Virus record (IMG/VR): IMGVR_UViG_3300021962_000581
Span: 1-25,702 of that record
Length of the DNA: 25,702 nt
Source of the DNA: a virus
Reading direction: 5' to 3' (one strand)
The stretch's first letter is position 1. The number at the start of each line of letters is the position of its first letter. The notes below the pieces were generated by a model that saw nothing but the letters and a program-made list of their open reading frames with translations, had not been told where the DNA came from and did no database searches. Positions 4,786-12,115 of this stretch are shown piece by piece. Position numbers and translations under genes: made by a program.

Positions 4786-6999
4786 ATGGCATTTAACGCA
4801 TTAATAAATACAATTGCACCTATTCCAACACCTGTTGATTGGGTAAGACCTGCTGATTGGATAACTATAACTGATACCCCTAACGAGGTTCAATTTTTAG
4901 TTGCTGATACAGGAGCTAAAGCATTTGCGATAACAACTACATTTACTCGTACATCGGGTAATATATACATTGATTGGGGAGATGGAGTAACTGATACAAT
5001 TTCAACTACAGCTTCAACAACTACAAATCACGTTTATTCAACGGGCGGAACACCTTGTTCAAGAGGTTACAATACATTTAAGATTAGAATATACGGAGAC
5101 GCAACTTGCGTAATTACAAATGCAAAACATATCTCAAATTTCAGTGTTACAGGTGGTAGCTCTTATTACAATATAGGTTTATTAGAGGCATATTTTGGTA
5201 ATAATACTTGTAATAATAATACATTTTTTACTTATTATTTTAATTCATTAGCTGCTCAACCAAATAGCACAGGGTCATTCCAATTATTAGAATATGTAAA
5301 ACTACCAAATACAGTAAGTTGGACAAATCAAATGGATAGTATGTTTTTGAATTGTCCTAATTTATATGTAGTTATTATGCCAACTTCGGCAAGTTCACTA
5401 ACAACTTTTTTTAATACTTTTAGAAATTGTGTTAATTTAAGAGATATAATATTGCCAAGTAATTCAACATTAATTACAACATTATCAGGGGCTTTTAATA
5501 CTTGCACAAATTTAAGAACAATTTCATTTCCTACAACCTTAAATGTTTGTACTATAATGACAGATATGTGTAGAAGTTGTTTTTCATTAAAGAATATTAC
5601 TTTACCTAGTATAAATTTATTAGTTACAGCAACTACTAGCTTTTTTTATTGTATTTCTTTACAATGGATTAGATTTACATCAATGCCAAGTCCTGTTTCA
5701 GCAGGAACAGCAGTAAATATTTCCTCATTTTTTTCAAATTGTTGGAATTTACAAAATGTATATTTTCCGTCTTCTTGTTCTTCAAATGCAATTTATAACG
5801 CAGCTAGTTTATTTGCAAGTTGCACAAATTTAAAAAATATAATATTTCCAATAAATTTCAATGCATCAACATTATCCTCAACATTTTCAAGTTGTAGTAG
5901 TATAACAAATATAATTTTTCAGTCTCCTTGCCCGAATTTAACAACAATGCAGAGTACATTTGCAAATTGCTTTTTATTAAATTCAATAACTTTTCCAACA
6001 ACTGTTGGTGCAACTATAAATTTGAGTTCTACATTTCAAACTTGTATTTCATTACGTTCAATAACAATACCTAGTGGATGGATAATTCAAACTTTGTCAG
6101 CTACTTTCGATTCTTGTTGGAGTGCTACATCAATAACATTACCGAATAATGCTCAAAATAGTTGTATTTCAATGGCCGGGACTTTTAGCGGTTGTCAAAA
6201 ATTAGAAAATGTAGTATTGCCAACTAGTTTAAATATTGTAAATAATTTAAGTGCTGTATTTGCATCTTGTTTTAGATTAAGTTCAATACAATTTCCAAGT
6301 ACTATGAACTCAGTAACAACAATAAATGGAGGTTTTTCAAATTGTTATAGTTTAACATCATTAACTTTGCCAACTAGTATGAATGCTTGTAGTGATTTTG
6401 GTTTTACATTTCAACTTTGTACATCATTAACTACTTTATTATTTCCAAATACAATATCTACAAACACTACAACTTTTGCAAATTCATTCCAACAATGCTC
6501 TAGTTTAAGAACTGTGACTCTACCGACTACACAAACTTCGTTAGTAAATTCAATAGACAATATGTTATCGGAATGTGGAAATTTAACAACAATAAATAAT
6601 TTAAATAGAATTGGAAGTTTAACAGCAACCCCATTAGTTTCATCTTTAAATGGGGGATCTTCGACATTATTTTCAAATTTAATAACTTCTTTAAGTTATA
6701 GCTGTCCTTTTTCAGTATTAAGATTAAACGGAACTAGCACAACAACAAACTTTAATAAATTAAATTCATTAAGATTGTTAAATGCATCAGCAGGTCAATG
6801 GACAGGTGCATCGCCACAAATAAATGTTTCTTTTTGTGATTTATCAACTGCTGCGTTGAATACATTATTTGCTGATATAGCAGCACAAGGTAACGTAGTG
6901 AGTAAAACAATAAATATAACAAGTTGCACAGGAGCAGCGGGTTTAACAGCAGCAGATAGATTAGTATTAACGTCAAGAGGTTGGACAATAACAGGATAA
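4786..6999 (+). CDS. Fibre or receptor-binding protein with BspA-type leucine-rich repeats
   Basis: This 737-aa product has an N-terminal domain (about 1-130) with a WGDG motif and a following NHVYS, as in PKD-like beta folds. Residues about 165-600 hold some 17 repeats of 23-25 residues, each close to CxxLxxIxLP followed by an FxxC segment. This is the BspA (Treponema/Bacteroides) leucine-rich repeat, known from surface adhesins. Nearly every repeat keeps the same Cys. The C-terminus (about 680-737) with DLSTAALNTLFADI and RLVLTSRGWTITG resembles the ends of other phage fibre proteins. Placed directly after the main fibre, it is best read as a virion adhesin. Phage use of this repeat may reflect gain from a bacterial surface protein. 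Confidence 0.8.
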   Translation: MAFNALINTIAPIPTPVDWVRPADWITITDTPNEVQFLVADTGAKAFAITTTFTRTSGNIYIDWGDGVTDTISTTASTTTNHVYSTGGTPCSRGYNTFKIRIYGDATCVITNAKHISNFSVTGGSSYYNIGLLEAYFGNNTCNNNTFFTYYFNSLAAQPNSTGSFQLLEYVKLPNTVSWTNQMDSMFLNCPNLYVVIMPTSASSLTTFFNTFRNCVNLRDIILPSNSTLITTLSGAFNTCTNLRTISFPTTLNVCTIMTDMCRSCFSLKNITLPSINLLVTATTSFFYCISLQWIRFTSMPSPVSAGTAVNISSFFSNCWNLQNVYFPSSCSSNAIYNAASLFASCTNLKNIIFPINFNASTLSSTFSSCSSITNIIFQSPCPNLTTMQSTFANCFLLNSITFPTTVGATINLSSTFQTCISLRSITIPSGWIIQTLSATFDSCWSATSITLPNNAQNSCISMAGTFSGCQKLENVVLPTSLNIVNNLSAVFASCFRLSSIQFPSTMNSVTTINGGFSNCYSLTSLTLPTSMNACSDFGFTFQLCTSLTTLLFPNTISTNTTTFANSFQQCSSLRTVTLPTTQTSLVNSIDNMLSECGNLTTINNLNRIGSLTATPLVSSLNGGSSTLFSNLITSLSYSCPFSVLRLNGTSTTTNFNKLNSLRLLNASAGQWTGASPQINVSFCDLSTAALNTLFADIAAQGNVVSKTINITSCTGAAGLTAADRLVLTSRGWTITG

Positions 7000-7000
7000 T

Positions 7001-7171
7001 ATGGAAGGATTTTACAGACAAAACGAAGATTTAATTTGGGAATATGCACCTAACTTTGTGTATGCACCTGATTATACATTATTAAAAGAAGAAAAAGATA
7101 CTTATGAATATCCAATAGATGGATGGACATGGTATGATAAACAACCTTATACAAATGAAGAAAATGAGTAA
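7001..7171 (+). CDS. 56-aa fibre-associated protein
   Basis: This short frame begins one base after the stop of the leucine-rich-repeat fibre. The product is acidic and aromatic-rich: it starts MEGFYRQNEDLIWEYAPNF, continues YAPDYTLLKEE, and has a YPIDGWTWYD motif near the end. I recall small proteins of this pattern directly behind fibre genes in flavobacterial phages. A role in fibre folding or attachment is plausible but unproven. Its stop overlaps the start of the next gene by 8 bases, which supports it being a real translated gene. Confidence 0.75.
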   Translation: MEGFYRQNEDLIWEYAPNFVYAPDYTLLKEEKDTYEYPIDGWTWYDKQPYTNEENE

Positions 7172-7346
7172 AGAACAATTAGATTTATTATTAAATAAAT
7201 GGATAAGTAGAAAACTATCTGTTTTTATAGTAGCATGCACGGGATTATTCTCAGGATATTTAACCTCATCTGATTGGGTTATTATATCTACAGCATACAT
7301 AGGAATTCAAGGATTTACGGACATTGTTAATAAACTGAAGAGATAA
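7164..7346 (+). CDS. Small membrane protein, candidate holin
   Basis: This 60-aa product has a polar N-terminus, two hydrophobic segments (about residues 18-34 and 38-54) split by a short SSDW turn, and a basic tail NKLKR. Size, topology and position before a lysis-type enzyme and a spanin fit a small two-helix holin. Upstream in-frame starts at 7119 and 7155 exist, but I chose 7164 because it gives the usual short overlap with the previous stop and a normal N-terminus. The stop overlaps the next start as TAATG. No family was recognised, so holin is inferred from topology and context. Confidence 0.65.
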   Translation: MSKEQLDLLLNKWISRKLSVFIVACTGLFSGYLTSSDWVIISTAYIGIQGFTDIVNKLKR

Positions 7347-7546
7347 TGGATCAATGTAGCCTACGCGTTTATTCTTTAAATGCTTTAACACTTATAATGA
7401 GTCTTACGAATTTGGAAGATACACTAAAAATATTATTATTGTTAATATCAATAATATATACCTCAATGAAAATATACGACTGGTTAATAATTAAAATAAA
7501 AGGAAATAAAAATGCAGATAACAGTAAAGAGACTACACAAGACTAA
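7346..7546 (+). CDS. Small single-span membrane protein, lysis region
   Basis: This 66-aa product has one strongly hydrophobic stretch (about residues 25-48, LKILLLLISIIYTS and onward) and a charged C-terminus (KGNKNADNSKE). The TAATG overlap with the previous stop supports a start at 7346. A second ATG at 7397 would give 49 aa starting MSLTNLEDTLK, a cleaner membrane-protein N-terminus, so the true start is uncertain. Its end overlaps the DUF5675 gene by 35 bases. It could be a second holin, an antiholin or a pinholin partner of the upstream protein. This is inferred only from topology and place. Confidence 0.6.
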   Translation: MDQCSLRVYSLNALTLIMSLTNLEDTLKILLLLISIIYTSMKIYDWLIIKIKGNKNADNSKETTQD

Positions 7547-7898
7547 TACATCTACAATAGGTGAACTATTGGTGGATGGTATTTTCCAATGTTACACGCT
7601 AGAGGATACAGAAAGACCGGTAAAGATTAAAAACGAAACAGCAATTCCAAAGGGAACTTATAAAGTTATAATCAATCAATCTAATAGGTTCAAAAGATTA
7701 TTACCTTTATTATTAAATGTACCAAACTTTGAAGGAGTTCGTATACATAGTGGCAACACTAATCATGATACAGAAGGTTGTATACTTGTTGGGCAAACAA
7801 GAGGAGCCAACTATGTTGGCCAATCAAGAAAAGCATTTGAAAAGTTATTTAAAAAAATGCAAGCAGCTAAAGAAATATCACTAACTATATTATCGTAA
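7512..7898 (+). CDS. DUF5675 family protein, candidate lysis or cell-wall enzyme
   Basis: This 128-aa product matches what I know of the DUF5675 family along its whole length: STIGELLVDGIFQCYTLED (about 14-32), AIPKGTYKV (44-52), LPLLLNVPNFEGVRIHSGN (64-82) and DTEGCILVG (86-94). The His-Ser-Gly-Asn plus Glu-Gly-Cys arrangement resembles the HG...GC signature of L,D-transpeptidase-type catalytic sites, so peptidoglycan cleavage is possible. No experimental role is known to me. It sits between two holin-like proteins and a spanin, the usual slot of the endolysin, and no other lysin is seen in the window. Its stop overlaps the spanin start (TAATG). Confidence 0.8.
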   Translation: MQITVKRLHKTNTSTIGELLVDGIFQCYTLEDTERPVKIKNETAIPKGTYKVIINQSNRFKRLLPLLLNVPNFEGVRIHSGNTNHDTEGCILVGQTRGANYVGQSRKAFEKLFKKMQAAKEISLTILS

Positions 7899-8386
7899 TG
7901 AAAAATTTTATATTATTATTTTTAATTGTATTAACATCTTGCGGAAGCAGGAAAGTTCAAGTAGATAAACTTGATATAAAAAAGGACAGTGTGGCCGAAA
8001 CAAAAATTGCGGTTACAACTATAGAAACAAAACAAAAAACGGATTCTACAAATATAGTTACAACAATTGATAATAGTGAGATAACTATTACGCCAATTGA
8101 TACATGCAAAGAAATTGTGGTAGACGGCAAAGTTTATAAAAACGTTGTTTTAAAGATAAAAAAAAATAAAGCTAATACTTTATATACAAATAACAAAACA
8201 GAGTCTAATAATAAGCGTATGGACTCCGTAGCAACTATTAAAGTAAATAAAACAGAGAAAGTTTCTGGTAAAAATAAAACTATAGATAAGAAGGCAGATT
8301 ATTCTTGGATCCTATGGTTACTTTTATTAATATTAATATTATATCAATTATGGCGAAACAGACTGTCGTTGCTAAAGTTATTGTAA
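7898..8386 (+). CDS. Lipoprotein with C-terminal membrane anchor, probable u-spanin
   Basis: This 162-aa product has a lipoprotein signal peptide (residues 1-14) with lipobox LTSC and the modified Cys at 15. A polar Lys/Thr-rich periplasmic stretch (about 16-133) follows, then a transmembrane helix (about 136-152, SWILWLLLLILILYQLW) and a short basic tail. An outer-membrane lipid anchor plus an inner-membrane helix in one chain is the defining architecture of unimolecular spanins (T1 gp11 type), which fuse the two membranes in the last step of lysis of Gram-negative hosts. The position after holin and lysin candidates agrees. The first 37 codons' worth of context shows no frameshift; the last 37 bases overlap the next gene in another frame. 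Confidence 0.8.
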   Translation: MKNFILLFLIVLTSCGSRKVQVDKLDIKKDSVAETKIAVTTIETKQKTDSTNIVTTIDNSEITITPIDTCKEIVVDGKVYKNVVLKIKKNKANTLYTNNKTESNNKRMDSVATIKVNKTEKVSGKNKTIDKKADYSWILWLLLLILILYQLWRNRLSLLKLL

Positions 8387-8484
8387 AAGACATTTCAAGA
8401 CCAGGTGTTCATGCAAAAACAAAATCATCTAAATTAAAAACCTCTAAGCTATATAAAAAAGCATATAGAGGCCAAGGAAAGTAA
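8350..8484 (+). CDS. 44-aa conserved basic microprotein
   Basis: This short frame begins inside the end of the spanin gene (37-base overlap, different frame). It starts MAKQTVVAKVIV and continues RPGVHAKTKSSKLKTSKLY, ending YRGQGK. The RPGVHAKxKxSxxKxSKxY...GQG pattern recurs, as I remember, in structural regions of many Bacteroidota phages including crAss-like ones, usually as a protein under 50 residues. It has a strong positive charge and no hydrophobic segment, so DNA or RNA binding or internal virion placement is plausible. The function is unknown. It is the last gene before the gap ahead of groEL. Confidence 0.75.
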   Translation: MAKQTVVAKVIVKDISRPGVHAKTKSSKLKTSKLYKKAYRGQGK

Positions 8485-8501
8485 AAGTCCTAAAAAGCAG
8501 G

Positions 8502-8520
8502 TGATATATAAGTTATATCA
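8502..8520 (+). promoter_or_regulatory. Short inverted repeat upstream of groEL
   Basis: TGATATA (8502-8508) is followed after 5 bases by its exact complement TATATCA (8514-8520). It lies in the 54-base gap before groEL, 18 bases before the start codon, in a position fit for an operator or a weak leader hairpin. The stem is AT-rich and weak, and no clear promoter octamer accompanies it. Confidence 0.3.
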
Positions 8521-8538
8521 ATTTAATCAAATAAAATT

Positions 8539-10086
8539 ATGTCAGACGCAATAGTCAAAAACTTAAGCTTTGGGAAAGAAGCGAGTGATAAAGTATTTAC
8601 CGGTATAGAAAAACTAGCTAAAGCAGTTAGCTCAACATTAGGAGCAAGTGGTAAATGTGTTTTGCTGGAAGACGGAAATGGTCGTCCAGTAATTACAAAA
8701 GATGGGGTTTCAGTTGCTGATTCCATTATATTATTAGACCCTGTTGAAAATATGGGCGCTACATTATTAAAAGAAGCAGCTAGAAAAACAGTAAGAGAAG
8801 CTGGAGATGGTACAACAACCGCAACAGTATTAGCTCATGCAATTTTAAAGAATGCTTACGCTATAGAAAATCCTAATGCTAGGCAAATAAAAGAAGGTAT
8901 TAATAAAGCAGTTGATAAAGTTATTGAATATCTCGAAGATATGGCAATAAAAGTCGACGATGAAATGTTAAATCAAATTGCAACAATTTCAACTAACAAT
9001 GATCCTGAACTAGGTAAATTAGTTGGTGATGCTTTTAGATCTGTTGGCAATACCGGAATTGTAATGATGGAAACATCATCAGAACCTGAATGTAGTTTAC
9101 AAGTTGTAGAAGGCGTTCAATGCTCAATGGGATTAAAAAATTCCCACTTTATAACAAATCAAAAAAACAAATCGGCGGAACTGGATAATCCTTTAGTTTT
9201 ATTAGTAGAATCGCCGGTTGAAAATATACGTCAAATACAATCAGTATTAGAGTACGTAATAAAAAATAATAAGTCTTTGTTAATCATTGCGGATATGGAT
9301 CAAGTTCCATTATCAGCTTTAGCAATGAATAAATCAAAAGGCAATATAAAAGTTAATGTTATTGACGCTCCGGTATTTGGAGTTAATAGAAAAGAAATCT
9401 TTGATGATTTGGCTTTATTAACAGGCGCAACATTAATAAATGAAGATCTAGGTGATGATTTAGATTTAATACGTCCTGAAATGTTAGGTACTTGTATTAA
9501 GAGTGTTACAAATCACGAAGAAACAATACTTCAAGTTGGTGAAACATCAGAAGAAATTTTGGATATTATAAATGATATTAAAAAGTCATTATTAGAAAAT
9601 AATTCACCGGCTCAAGTAATTAAGCTAGAAAAAAGATTAGCAAGACTAACAGCTAAAATTGCTGTTTTAAAAGTTGGTGCTAATTCAGAAATAGAATTAA
9701 AAGAAAAAGCAGACAGAATAGAAGATGCCATTTGCGCAACCAAGGCAGCAATCAAAGAAGGTATTGTACCAGGAGGAGGAATTGCTTTACTAAATGCTTC
9801 TCACAATATAGATACGTTTTCTACTGGTGAAGAAATACTTTTAGATTCTATTAGAGCACCTTTTAAAACTATATTAGATAATGCAGGTATTGATCATGCC
9901 CCATTAGAAACAATATCAAAAGTTGGGTACGGGCTTAACGTTATAACAGGTGAAACTGTTGATATGATTAAAGCAGGTATTATTGATCCTTTATTAGTTA
10001 CAAAATCAGCATTAAGAAATGCGGCTTCAGTAGCTACTACTATATTGTCAACGGATTGTGTAATCAATAATTTGAGAGTACAATGA
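8539..10086 (+). CDS. groEL: Phage-encoded group I chaperonin GroEL
   Basis: This 515-aa product aligns with bacterial GroEL (about 548 aa) from end to end. Equatorial domain: STLGASGK (32-39), ITKDGVSVA (52-60) and the ATP site GDGTTTATVL (89-98). Asp55, Asp90, Asp396 (RIEDA) and Asp483 correspond to E. coli Asp52, Asp87, Asp398 and Asp495, so ATP hydrolysis should be intact. The apical domain (about 190-375) changes several substrate-binding residues (see findings). VPGGG is at 410-414. The usual GGM-rich C-terminal tail is missing; the chain ends NNLRVQ. groEL precedes groES with an ATGA overlap, the reverse of the bacterial groES-groEL order. It probably folds capsid or tail proteins in the infected cell. 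Confidence 0.95.
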   Translation: MSDAIVKNLSFGKEASDKVFTGIEKLAKAVSSTLGASGKCVLLEDGNGRPVITKDGVSVADSIILLDPVENMGATLLKEAARKTVREAGDGTTTATVLAHAILKNAYAIENPNARQIKEGINKAVDKVIEYLEDMAIKVDDEMLNQIATISTNNDPELGKLVGDAFRSVGNTGIVMMETSSEPECSLQVVEGVQCSMGLKNSHFITNQKNKSAELDNPLVLLVESPVENIRQIQSVLEYVIKNNKSLLIIADMDQVPLSALAMNKSKGNIKVNVIDAPVFGVNRKEIFDDLALLTGATLINEDLGDDLDLIRPEMLGTCIKSVTNHEETILQVGETSEEILDIINDIKKSLLENNSPAQVIKLEKRLARLTAKIAVLKVGANSEIELKEKADRIEDAICATKAAIKEGIVPGGGIALLNASHNIDTFSTGEEILLDSIRAPFKTILDNAGIDHAPLETISKVGYGLNVITGETVDMIKAGIIDPLLVTKSALRNAASVATTILSTDCVINNLRVQ

Positions 10087-10343
10087 AAGCAGTAGGTAGG
10101 AATTTAATAATACAAAAAGTAAAAGAGGGGACTACCGCAACGAAAGGCGGTTTATTACTTGCAGAGAATCAGAGAGAAGATATTAGGTATGTAGAAGCTC
10201 AAGTGATGTCTGTTGGTGAAGAAGTTGCTGGAGTAAAAGTTAGTGATATAATTTTTTATGATAGGCATGCTGGTCACAAAATAGAGCTTGGAAAAGAAAT
10301 ATACCACGTTATAAAACTTGCCGATGTAGTTGTTGTATTATGA
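10083..10343 (+). CDS. groES: Phage-encoded co-chaperonin GroES
   Basis: This 86-aa product fits the GroES fold. It opens with a conserved-type first strand (MKAVGRNLIIQKV), has a mobile loop at about 15-32 containing GGLLL (22-26) in place of the GGIVL that docks onto GroEL, then VMSVGEE and a C-terminal core ending DVVVVL. E. coli GroES has a roof hairpin after the VGN motif; here VGEEVAGVKVSD runs directly into the next strand, so the roof loop seems absent, as in T4 gp31. Start and stop both overlap neighbours (ATGA with groEL and with the next gene), so stoichiometric coupling with groEL is likely. Confidence 0.92.
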   Translation: MKAVGRNLIIQKVKEGTTATKGGLLLAENQREDIRYVEAQVMSVGEEVAGVKVSDIIFYDRHAGHKIELGKEIYHVIKLADVVVVL

Positions 10344-10798
10344 GCCGTTTAGAAGCATCAGATATTAAGGATCTTGGATTGCTAAAACATTATAGGATAA
10401 TACGCAGATGGGCTTGTAAAAACAATAATTTAACCGATGCAGATTTAGAGTTGCTAATATACTTTGACTGCATGGATTTTTTTACCAAACAGGATTATAA
10501 GATAGGTACATACGCATATAGTTGGGATAATAAACGCTGGAACAATTTATTAAAAGAAGGTTGGATAGTGGTTTGGAGAAATAGAAACCATACAACTCAA
10601 AAATACAATATATATAAAGTTTCATTTAAGTGTAAACAACTAATAAATAAGATGTACCGTATAATGCTGGGTAAAGACGATATACCAACTAGCCATAGAA
10701 ACACTATAATGAAAGGCAAAACGTATATGGATACTGTTGCAATAACAGCAATACAAAATGTAAATAACGATAAAACAAGAAATAGTTATGATGAATAA
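10340..10798 (+). CDS. Winged-helix-like conserved phage protein
   Basis: This 152-aa basic product has a helical N-terminal half with DADLELLIYFD (about 33-43), then YSWDNKRWNNLLKEGWIVVW (about 60-79), which looks like the recognition helix and wing of a MarR-type winged helix. A VSFKCKQLINKMY helix follows, then a Thr/Arg-rich tail with NTIMKGKTYMD. I recall this family in crAss-like and other Bacteroidota phages but know no function. It is coupled to groES by ATGA and overlaps the next gene by 11 bases. It could control the chaperonin operon or late genes, or be a structural protein; this is inference. Confidence 0.65.
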   Translation: MSRLEASDIKDLGLLKHYRIIRRWACKNNNLTDADLELLIYFDCMDFFTKQDYKIGTYAYSWDNKRWNNLLKEGWIVVWRNRNHTTQKYNIYKVSFKCKQLINKMYRIMLGKDDIPTSHRNTIMKGKTYMDTVAITAIQNVNNDKTRNSYDE

Positions 10799-11800: not shown

Positions 11801-12115
11801 ATGGCATTTATAATGAAGGGTGCACCGTATAATATGGACAATACTCCAATCTATAGTACAGACATGGATGGTGATGTATTAGGTATGGCGCAAAATAATG
11901 GAGCAATCCTAATTAACAAAGACGTGTCCCCTTTAGAATTAAAAAAAAATAAAACCATATCTCACGAGAAAGTTCATATAGATCAAATGAAGCGTGGCGA
12001 TTTAGATTATACGGATACTCATGTTATTTGGAAAGGCAAAAAATACCCTAGAGCTACTATGGACGAAGGAAATAAAAAATTACCTTGGGAAATGGAAGCT
12101 TATAAAAAACAGTAA
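11801..12115 (+). CDS. Small protein with HExxH motif, candidate metallopeptidase
   Basis: This 104-aa product carries SHEKVHIDQ (residues 54-62), a complete HExxH zinc-peptidase signature, followed 38 residues after the second His by a WEMEAY segment whose Glu97 or Glu99 could be the third zinc ligand of a gluzincin. The N-terminal part is short, with an ILINKDV strand before the helix, as in minimal metallopeptidase domains. I know of HExxH proteins with a similar HxxH...WExEA layout in phage structural regions but cannot name the family. It could mature a virion protein or act on the host envelope. A start at residue 5 (MKGAPY) is also possible. Confidence 0.7.
   Translation: MAFIMKGAPYNMDNTPIYSTDMDGDVLGMAQNNGAILINKDVSPLELKKNKTISHEKVHIDQMKRGDLDYTDTHVIWKGKKYPRATMDEGNKKLPWEMEAYKKQ

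Follow-up and report, generated by a model that had tools for sequence, protein, structure and literature searches.

A DUF5675 protein with a predicted YkuD-like fold as the probable endolysin of a compact phage lysis block

Introduction

Which enzyme opens the cell wall when a phage lysis block has small membrane genes and a spanin but a protein of the uncharacterised family DUF5675 in the place of the endolysin? The question is raised by a viral DNA stretch of 25,702 nucleotides (positions 1 to 25,702 of IMG/VR record IMGVR_UViG_3300021962_000581), a 25.7 kb contig that is itself a fragment and that we call the window. Pfam and PHROG 1501 give unknown function for DUF5675, and we found no study of its activity in the literature. 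The only full-text papers found to name it are two genome papers on lytic Vibrio phages, in which DUF5675 lies next to a transmembrane protein and no endolysin is listed (PMC9229204, PMC10671443). A first-pass annotation of the window suggested that the protein may be a lysin of an uncharacterised class, and here we examine that suggestion by comparing gene order, gene exchange, sequence motifs and predicted structure across related viruses.

The lysis block and its relatives

The terminase of the window shares 64% identity with that of a podovirus from Manatee Spring (MW202828) and 43% with that of Flavobacterium phage elemo, and the host of the virus is a Bacteroidota-type bacterium. Five relatives of ~66 kb (G001, G002, G004, G005 and G006) align to large parts of the window. 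Their starts are mutually permuted and G004 closes on itself when aligned against G002, so by alignment G004 is apparently a complete genome, with the records classed as linear. The stretch 7161-10790 is among the best-conserved DNA shared by the window and these relatives.

The lysis block itself (7164-8386, + strand) consists of H1 (7164-7346), a 60 aa membrane protein that is a probable holin or holin partner; H2 (7346-7546), a 66 aa membrane protein that is a probable second holin or antiholin; the DUF5675 protein (7512-7898), 128 aa long and the probable YkuD-like endolysin; and a u-spanin of 162 aa (7898-8386). The four genes overlap in series, as the first-pass annotation had described: H1/H2 and DUF5675/u-spanin by 1 nt within TAATG, and H2/DUF5675 by 35 nt. 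Dozens of independent viral contigs share this order, so it is more than a chance arrangement.

H1 has a hydrophobic stretch and H2 one transmembrane segment. Their matches to PHROG holins are weak (E=0.02 and E=0.026, respectively), and both have homologues in the isolate phage elemo (E=8e-32 for H1 and E=5e-25 for H2); in 79 viral loci, homologues of H1 lie directly upstream of the lysin. The two proteins probably serve to open the inner membrane. The u-spanins of phage T1 type are single chains with an N-terminal lipobox and a C-terminal transmembrane helix. The 162 aa protein is also a single chain, with Cys15 in an N-terminal lipobox (LTSC) and, at the C-terminal end, a transmembrane segment near residues 134-152, a likeness to the T1 type that is one of layout alone. 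It matches phrog_5885 (E=1.6e-11) and is kept beside every lysin type in the loci of the relatives.

Exchange of DUF5675 with lysozymes and peptidases

We gathered a first set of loci through the GroEL gene that follows the block; in the window, a phage GroEL/GroES pair occupies 8539-10343. Where DUF5675 is present (12 loci), it lies ~1 kb upstream of GroEL. In eight further GroEL-anchored loci there is a homologous spanin and an M15_3 or M15_4 peptidase instead of DUF5675, and seven of these eight also have homologous H1 and H2.

A second set was gathered by H1 alone and is thus blind to DUF5675. It holds 80 loci, one of which was dropped because it ends at a contig edge. In the remaining 79 viral loci, the lytic gene that follows the small membrane genes is a GH24 lysozyme in 39, DUF5675 in 23 and an M15 peptidase in 17; not one locus has two lytic genes, and not one lacks a lytic gene. 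The same arrangement is found in the lysis cassette of elemo (MT497078), where homologues of H1 and H2, overlapping and in the same order, precede an M15_4-family 'D-alanyl-D-alanine carboxypeptidase' in the DUF5675 slot; elemo differs also in that no u-spanin homologue was detected beside the cassette. Based on the one-for-one exchange at the H1-anchored loci and on the H1-H2-M15 order of elemo, we conclude that DUF5675 occupies the endolysin slot. The presence of lysozymes and peptidases in this slot in related viruses strongly suggests that DUF5675 is itself the wall-cutting enzyme, and this replacement is stronger evidence than was available to the first-pass annotation.

Search for other lysins

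The first-pass annotation saw no usual lysozyme, amidase or peptidase gene in the window, and a Pfam scan of nearly all of the other window proteins likewise found none of these families. Because the window is a fragment, we tested the absence of another lysin on the ~66 kb relatives. Nearly the whole proteome of G004, including two very large proteins, contains no recognised lysin besides DUF5675.

We also searched 48 records for GH24, M15_4, M15_3, Amidase_2 and CHAP; searches for GH19 and GH108 matched nothing, controls included, so these two families were left out of the counts. A canonical lysin family was found in 1/23 of the relatives that carry DUF5675, as against 11/15 of those that do not (Fisher p=1.2e-5), where some records are fragments, so an absence weighs less than a presence. 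A canonical endolysin elsewhere in the genome would have spoken against the proposed role, and in 22 of the 23 DUF5675-bearing records there is none among the families searched. Nor was any of the five families found in the records searched of Bacteroides fragilis phage VA7, Curvibacter phage PCA1, Campylobacter phage CJIE4-3, Bacteroides phage crAss001 and the microviruses.

The one DUF5675-bearing relative with a canonical lysin is G012, with an M15_3 peptidase. At this locus (L019, 5730-6155 and 10001-10384) the M15_3 peptidase has its own holin-like gene and stands in addition to the DUF5675 cassette, so that this phage has two lysis modules. We had considered that DUF5675 and other lysins might strictly exclude each other, which this genome rules out.

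Predicted fold and catalytic residues of DUF5675

The window protein matches the DUF5675 family model PF18925 with E=1.8e-38 and 131.4 bits (cut-off 26.7). The first-pass annotation had noted that its HSGN and EGC motifs recall the L,D-transpeptidase site. Both motifs are present, and by alignment they place the predicted catalytic histidine at His79 (HxGN motif, codon 7746-7748, + strand) and the predicted nucleophile at Cys90 (motif [TS]xGC, codon 7779-7781, + strand), a His-Cys spacing of 11. Among aligned DUF5675 proteins, Cys90 and the [TS] at position 87 are invariant (186/186 each) and His79 is nearly so (185/186). The Pfam model for YkuD (PF03734) gave no match to the protein at E<=0.1. 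Profile comparison with hhalign aligned DUF5675 with YkuD domains at E=3e-4 (reversed control 0.39), with HxG and [ST]xGC in register; the test was small and the YkuD domains were chosen by motif, so this E-value is somewhat flattering. The match to Tlde1 (PF10908) is weak (E=0.014, 16.2 bits, below the cut-off of 30.1), the Tlde1 family search yielded no alignment bridging the two families, and sequence searches of the PDB with the protein or its alignment found no relative.

An AlphaFold2 model of the protein, made with an alignment of 32 relatives, has a pLDDT of 93.6 and a pTM of 0.86. In a plain Foldseek search of the PDB the best E was 0.14 and no YkuD chain was among the top 50. When the Foldseek candidates were re-aligned with VIA-align, YkuD-fold enzymes filled 42/42 rows, a set that is visible solely after this re-alignment. 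The best match is Pgp2 (Z 10.3, rmsd 2.6 over 108 residues), and other matches are LdtMt2 (Z 9.0), Csd6 and Bacillus subtilis YkuD (both Z 8.9), Tlde1a (Z 8.8) and DpaA (Z 8.4). A second model, of a distant member with ~40% identity (L125), gave the same YkuD set with Pgp2 at Z 9.1, and the sole unrelated chain scored Z 2.2. The structure comparison with YkuD-type enzymes that the first-pass annotation called for therefore came out in its favour: as far as two separate predicted models that agree can tell, the DUF5675 protein has a YkuD-like fold. The arginine that usually follows GC[IV] in transpeptidases is missing, with GCIL or GCLL found instead. Given this loss and the failure of the Pfam YkuD model, we call the protein YkuD-like rather than a member of YkuD.

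The best structural matches, the L,D-carboxypeptidases Pgp2 of Campylobacter jejuni and Csd6 of Helicobacter pylori, are unlike DUF5675 in being multidomain cell-shape enzymes that trim stem peptides and have no part in lysis. Tlde1a, a type VI secretion effector of Salmonella (PDB 7uma, PMC9638812), shares with DUF5675 the YkuD-like fold, an antibacterial use and a short His-Cys spacing, 10 in Tlde1a (H121, C131; PMC9638812) against 11 in DUF5675. It differs in the -2 position, which is His in Tlde1a and mostly Glu or Asp in DUF5675, and it is a secreted effector, not a phage lysin. DpaA (LdtF) of Escherichia coli is a hydrolytic enzyme of the YkuD fold that cleaves a lipoprotein bond and lacks a conserved active-site arginine of transpeptidases (PMC12729407); we do not equate this arginine residue by residue with the one after GC[IV]. 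Unlike DUF5675, DpaA is a host enzyme and releases Lpp from peptidoglycan.

Neighbourhood and spread of DUF5675

A tblastn search found DUF5675 in 252 phage records, including crAss-like phages, Vibrio and Campylobacter phages, and circular Microviridae with seven genes. In a distant and a near set of viral loci, a small membrane gene lies beside DUF5675 in 71/77 and 67/70 cases, as against 40% and 32% of control genes from the same loci. Genes resembling u-spanins are near DUF5675 in 21/77 (distant) and 52/70 (near), as against 4/92 and 0/185 for the controls. In unrelated phages, namely VA7, PCA1, CJIE4-3 and crAss phages, DUF5675 likewise lies between or beside membrane and Rz-like genes. 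DUF5675 copies on bacterial chromosomes have small membrane neighbours in 17/49 cases, as against 40/66 for controls, so the lysis neighbourhood applies to the phage members of the family. That all DUF5675 proteins are lysins is ruled out by such chromosomal copies outside a lysis context, for example in Nitrosospira. The Nitrosospira gene (L085 and L090, 6001-6393) is just downstream of a Ser/Thr-kinase-like gene.

In the circular seven-gene Microviridae (L314-L317), DUF5675 lies between the pilot and replication genes, and in L314 a small membrane or lipoprotein-like ORF overlaps its end. No other lysin was found in these microviruses among the families tested. DUF5675 also occurs as a domain of long phage proteins, such as one in Ralstonia phage RP31. 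In crAss phage cr130_1 (L341, 2501-2929), DUF5675 and the neighbouring holin contain TAG codons in frame, consistent with the recoding of stop codons in late genes.

The nearest precedent for a lytic role is in the crAss-like phages. Gp30 of crAss001 (MH675552) belongs to the same Pfam family as the window protein (E=2.8e-28), and gp30 and its crAss-like relatives adjoin genes annotated as lysis regulatory protein or holin. Gp30 differs in that it is ~41% identical to the window protein and comes from another phage family, and its neighbouring lysis genes show no homology to those for H1, H2 and the spanin of the window. The crAss001 papers mention three genes for lysis as well as a holin and endolysin, in passages that describe no assay. 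Records of crAss phages label relatives of DUF5675 as 'L,D-carboxypeptidase/transpeptidase', and the listed parts of a multidomain gut-phage endolysin include a YkuD domain (PMC13284279). The suggestion that DUF5675 is a lysin gains from the slot exchange with GH24 and M15 and from the YkuD-like fold, and the crAss-phage labels mean that the class was not wholly unrecognised. The idea is not wholly new; what differs here is a probable endolysin whose YkuD-like catalytic domain stands alone.

Proposed mechanism and alternatives

We consider it highly probable that the four genes form a holin-endolysin-spanin cassette in which the part of the endolysin falls to the DUF5675 protein, a YkuD-like enzyme with Cys90 and His79 in its active site and with hydrolysis of the mDAP3-D-Ala4 bond as its most likely reaction. 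The gene order, the slot exchange with proven endolysin families, the predicted fold and the conserved catalytic signature are well supported, and from these we infer that DUF5675 cleaves peptidoglycan and which bond it cuts. The protein lacks both a signal peptide and a membrane anchor. It would therefore stay soluble in the cytoplasm until H1 and H2 open the inner membrane, and would reach the wall through their hole. There Cys90 would attack the L-centre carbonyl of meso-DAP3, leading to hydrolysis of the mDAP3-D-Ala4 bond. An mDAP-D-Ala bond is part of the donor stem in a 4-3 cross-link, so a cut at this place would open the cross-link, making DUF5675 an endopeptidase; with free tetrapeptides as substrate, its activity would be that of an L,D-carboxypeptidase. 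Disruption of the outer membrane by the u-spanin would follow.

Those YkuD enzymes that have been studied best act as transpeptidases or carboxypeptidases and are not lytic by themselves, which counts against reading DUF5675 as an endolysin. LD-endopeptidase activity is known for one YkuD enzyme, LdtCd2 of Clostridioides difficile, on mDAP-mDAP cross-links (PMC12729407). The broader proposal is that DUF5675 forms a class of stand-alone cysteine endolysins, YkuD-like, that cut the L,D bond between meso-DAP3 and D-Ala4 within 4-3 cross-links, unlike the textbook classes, and that serve tailed phages of several host groups as well as seven-gene ssDNA microviruses. This we put forward tentatively, as having somewhat less than an even chance of being right.

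The main alternative is that DUF5675 is an auxiliary editor of peptidoglycan, either an L,D-carboxypeptidase or a D-amino-acid exchanger like Tlde1a, which weakens the wall while the true endolysin is another unrecognised protein. The closest structural matches are indeed the carboxypeptidases Pgp2 and Csd6 and the exchange enzyme Tlde1a (PMC9638812), an M15 peptidase coexists with DUF5675 in one relative, and a lytic domain could lie hidden in the two very large G004 proteins, neither of which matches a Pfam family. We nevertheless regard an editor as unlikely, given that GH24 or M15 replaces DUF5675 one-for-one across the 79 loci, that DUF5675 is the sole recognised wall enzyme of the seven-gene microviruses, and that canonical lysin families are missing in 22/23 related records.

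A role closer to the spanin step, in which DUF5675 frees outer-membrane proteins from their attachment to the wall, as DpaA does with Lpp, is suggested by the presence of DpaA among the structural matches, by the lost arginine after GC[IV], which recalls the arginine missing from DpaA, and by the adjoining spanin gene. However, the lysozymes and M15 peptidases that replace DUF5675 do no such job, and the phages with DUF5675 would be left without an endolysin, so we think this very improbable. It is slightly less probable still that DUF5675 is unrelated to lysis and that the lysin is another gene of the window, such as the zincin-like protein at 11801-12115, which has a metallopeptidase-like motif (HEKVH...E) and is itself kept in relatives. 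This protein is encoded outside the lysis block, among structural genes, and matches only PHROGs of unknown function, while DUF5675 sits exactly in the endolysin slot.

If DUF5675 is the endolysin, it would add to phage lysis a new catalytic class with a cysteine nucleophile, directed at an L,D bond outside the reach of lysozymes, amidases and D,D-peptidases. DUF5675 may be the missing endolysin of crAss-like, Vibrio and Campylobacter phages and of microviruses, which would provide a ready assignment for many phages whose annotation lists no lysin. There is also the question of how an L,D-transpeptidase fold became a lytic hydrolase.

Other genes of the window

The zincin-like ORF at 11801-12115 encodes 104 aa with an HExxH motif (ISHEKVHIDQ...WEMEAYKKQ), and it is possible that it is a small metallopeptidase of virion assembly. 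A basic 44-aa ORF (8350-8484) overlaps the end of the spanin gene by 37 nt. A PHROG search with it found no match, and its motif ISRPGVHAKxK..LK.SK.YKK.Y.GQG recurs elsewhere in the lysis region of relatives. Directly upstream of the lysis block is a 737-aa BspA-type leucine-rich-repeat protein (4786-6999; LRR_5/DUF285, E=3.9e-39). Its place is taken by other genes in relatives, so that a variable adhesin or receptor-binding protein is one possible reading.
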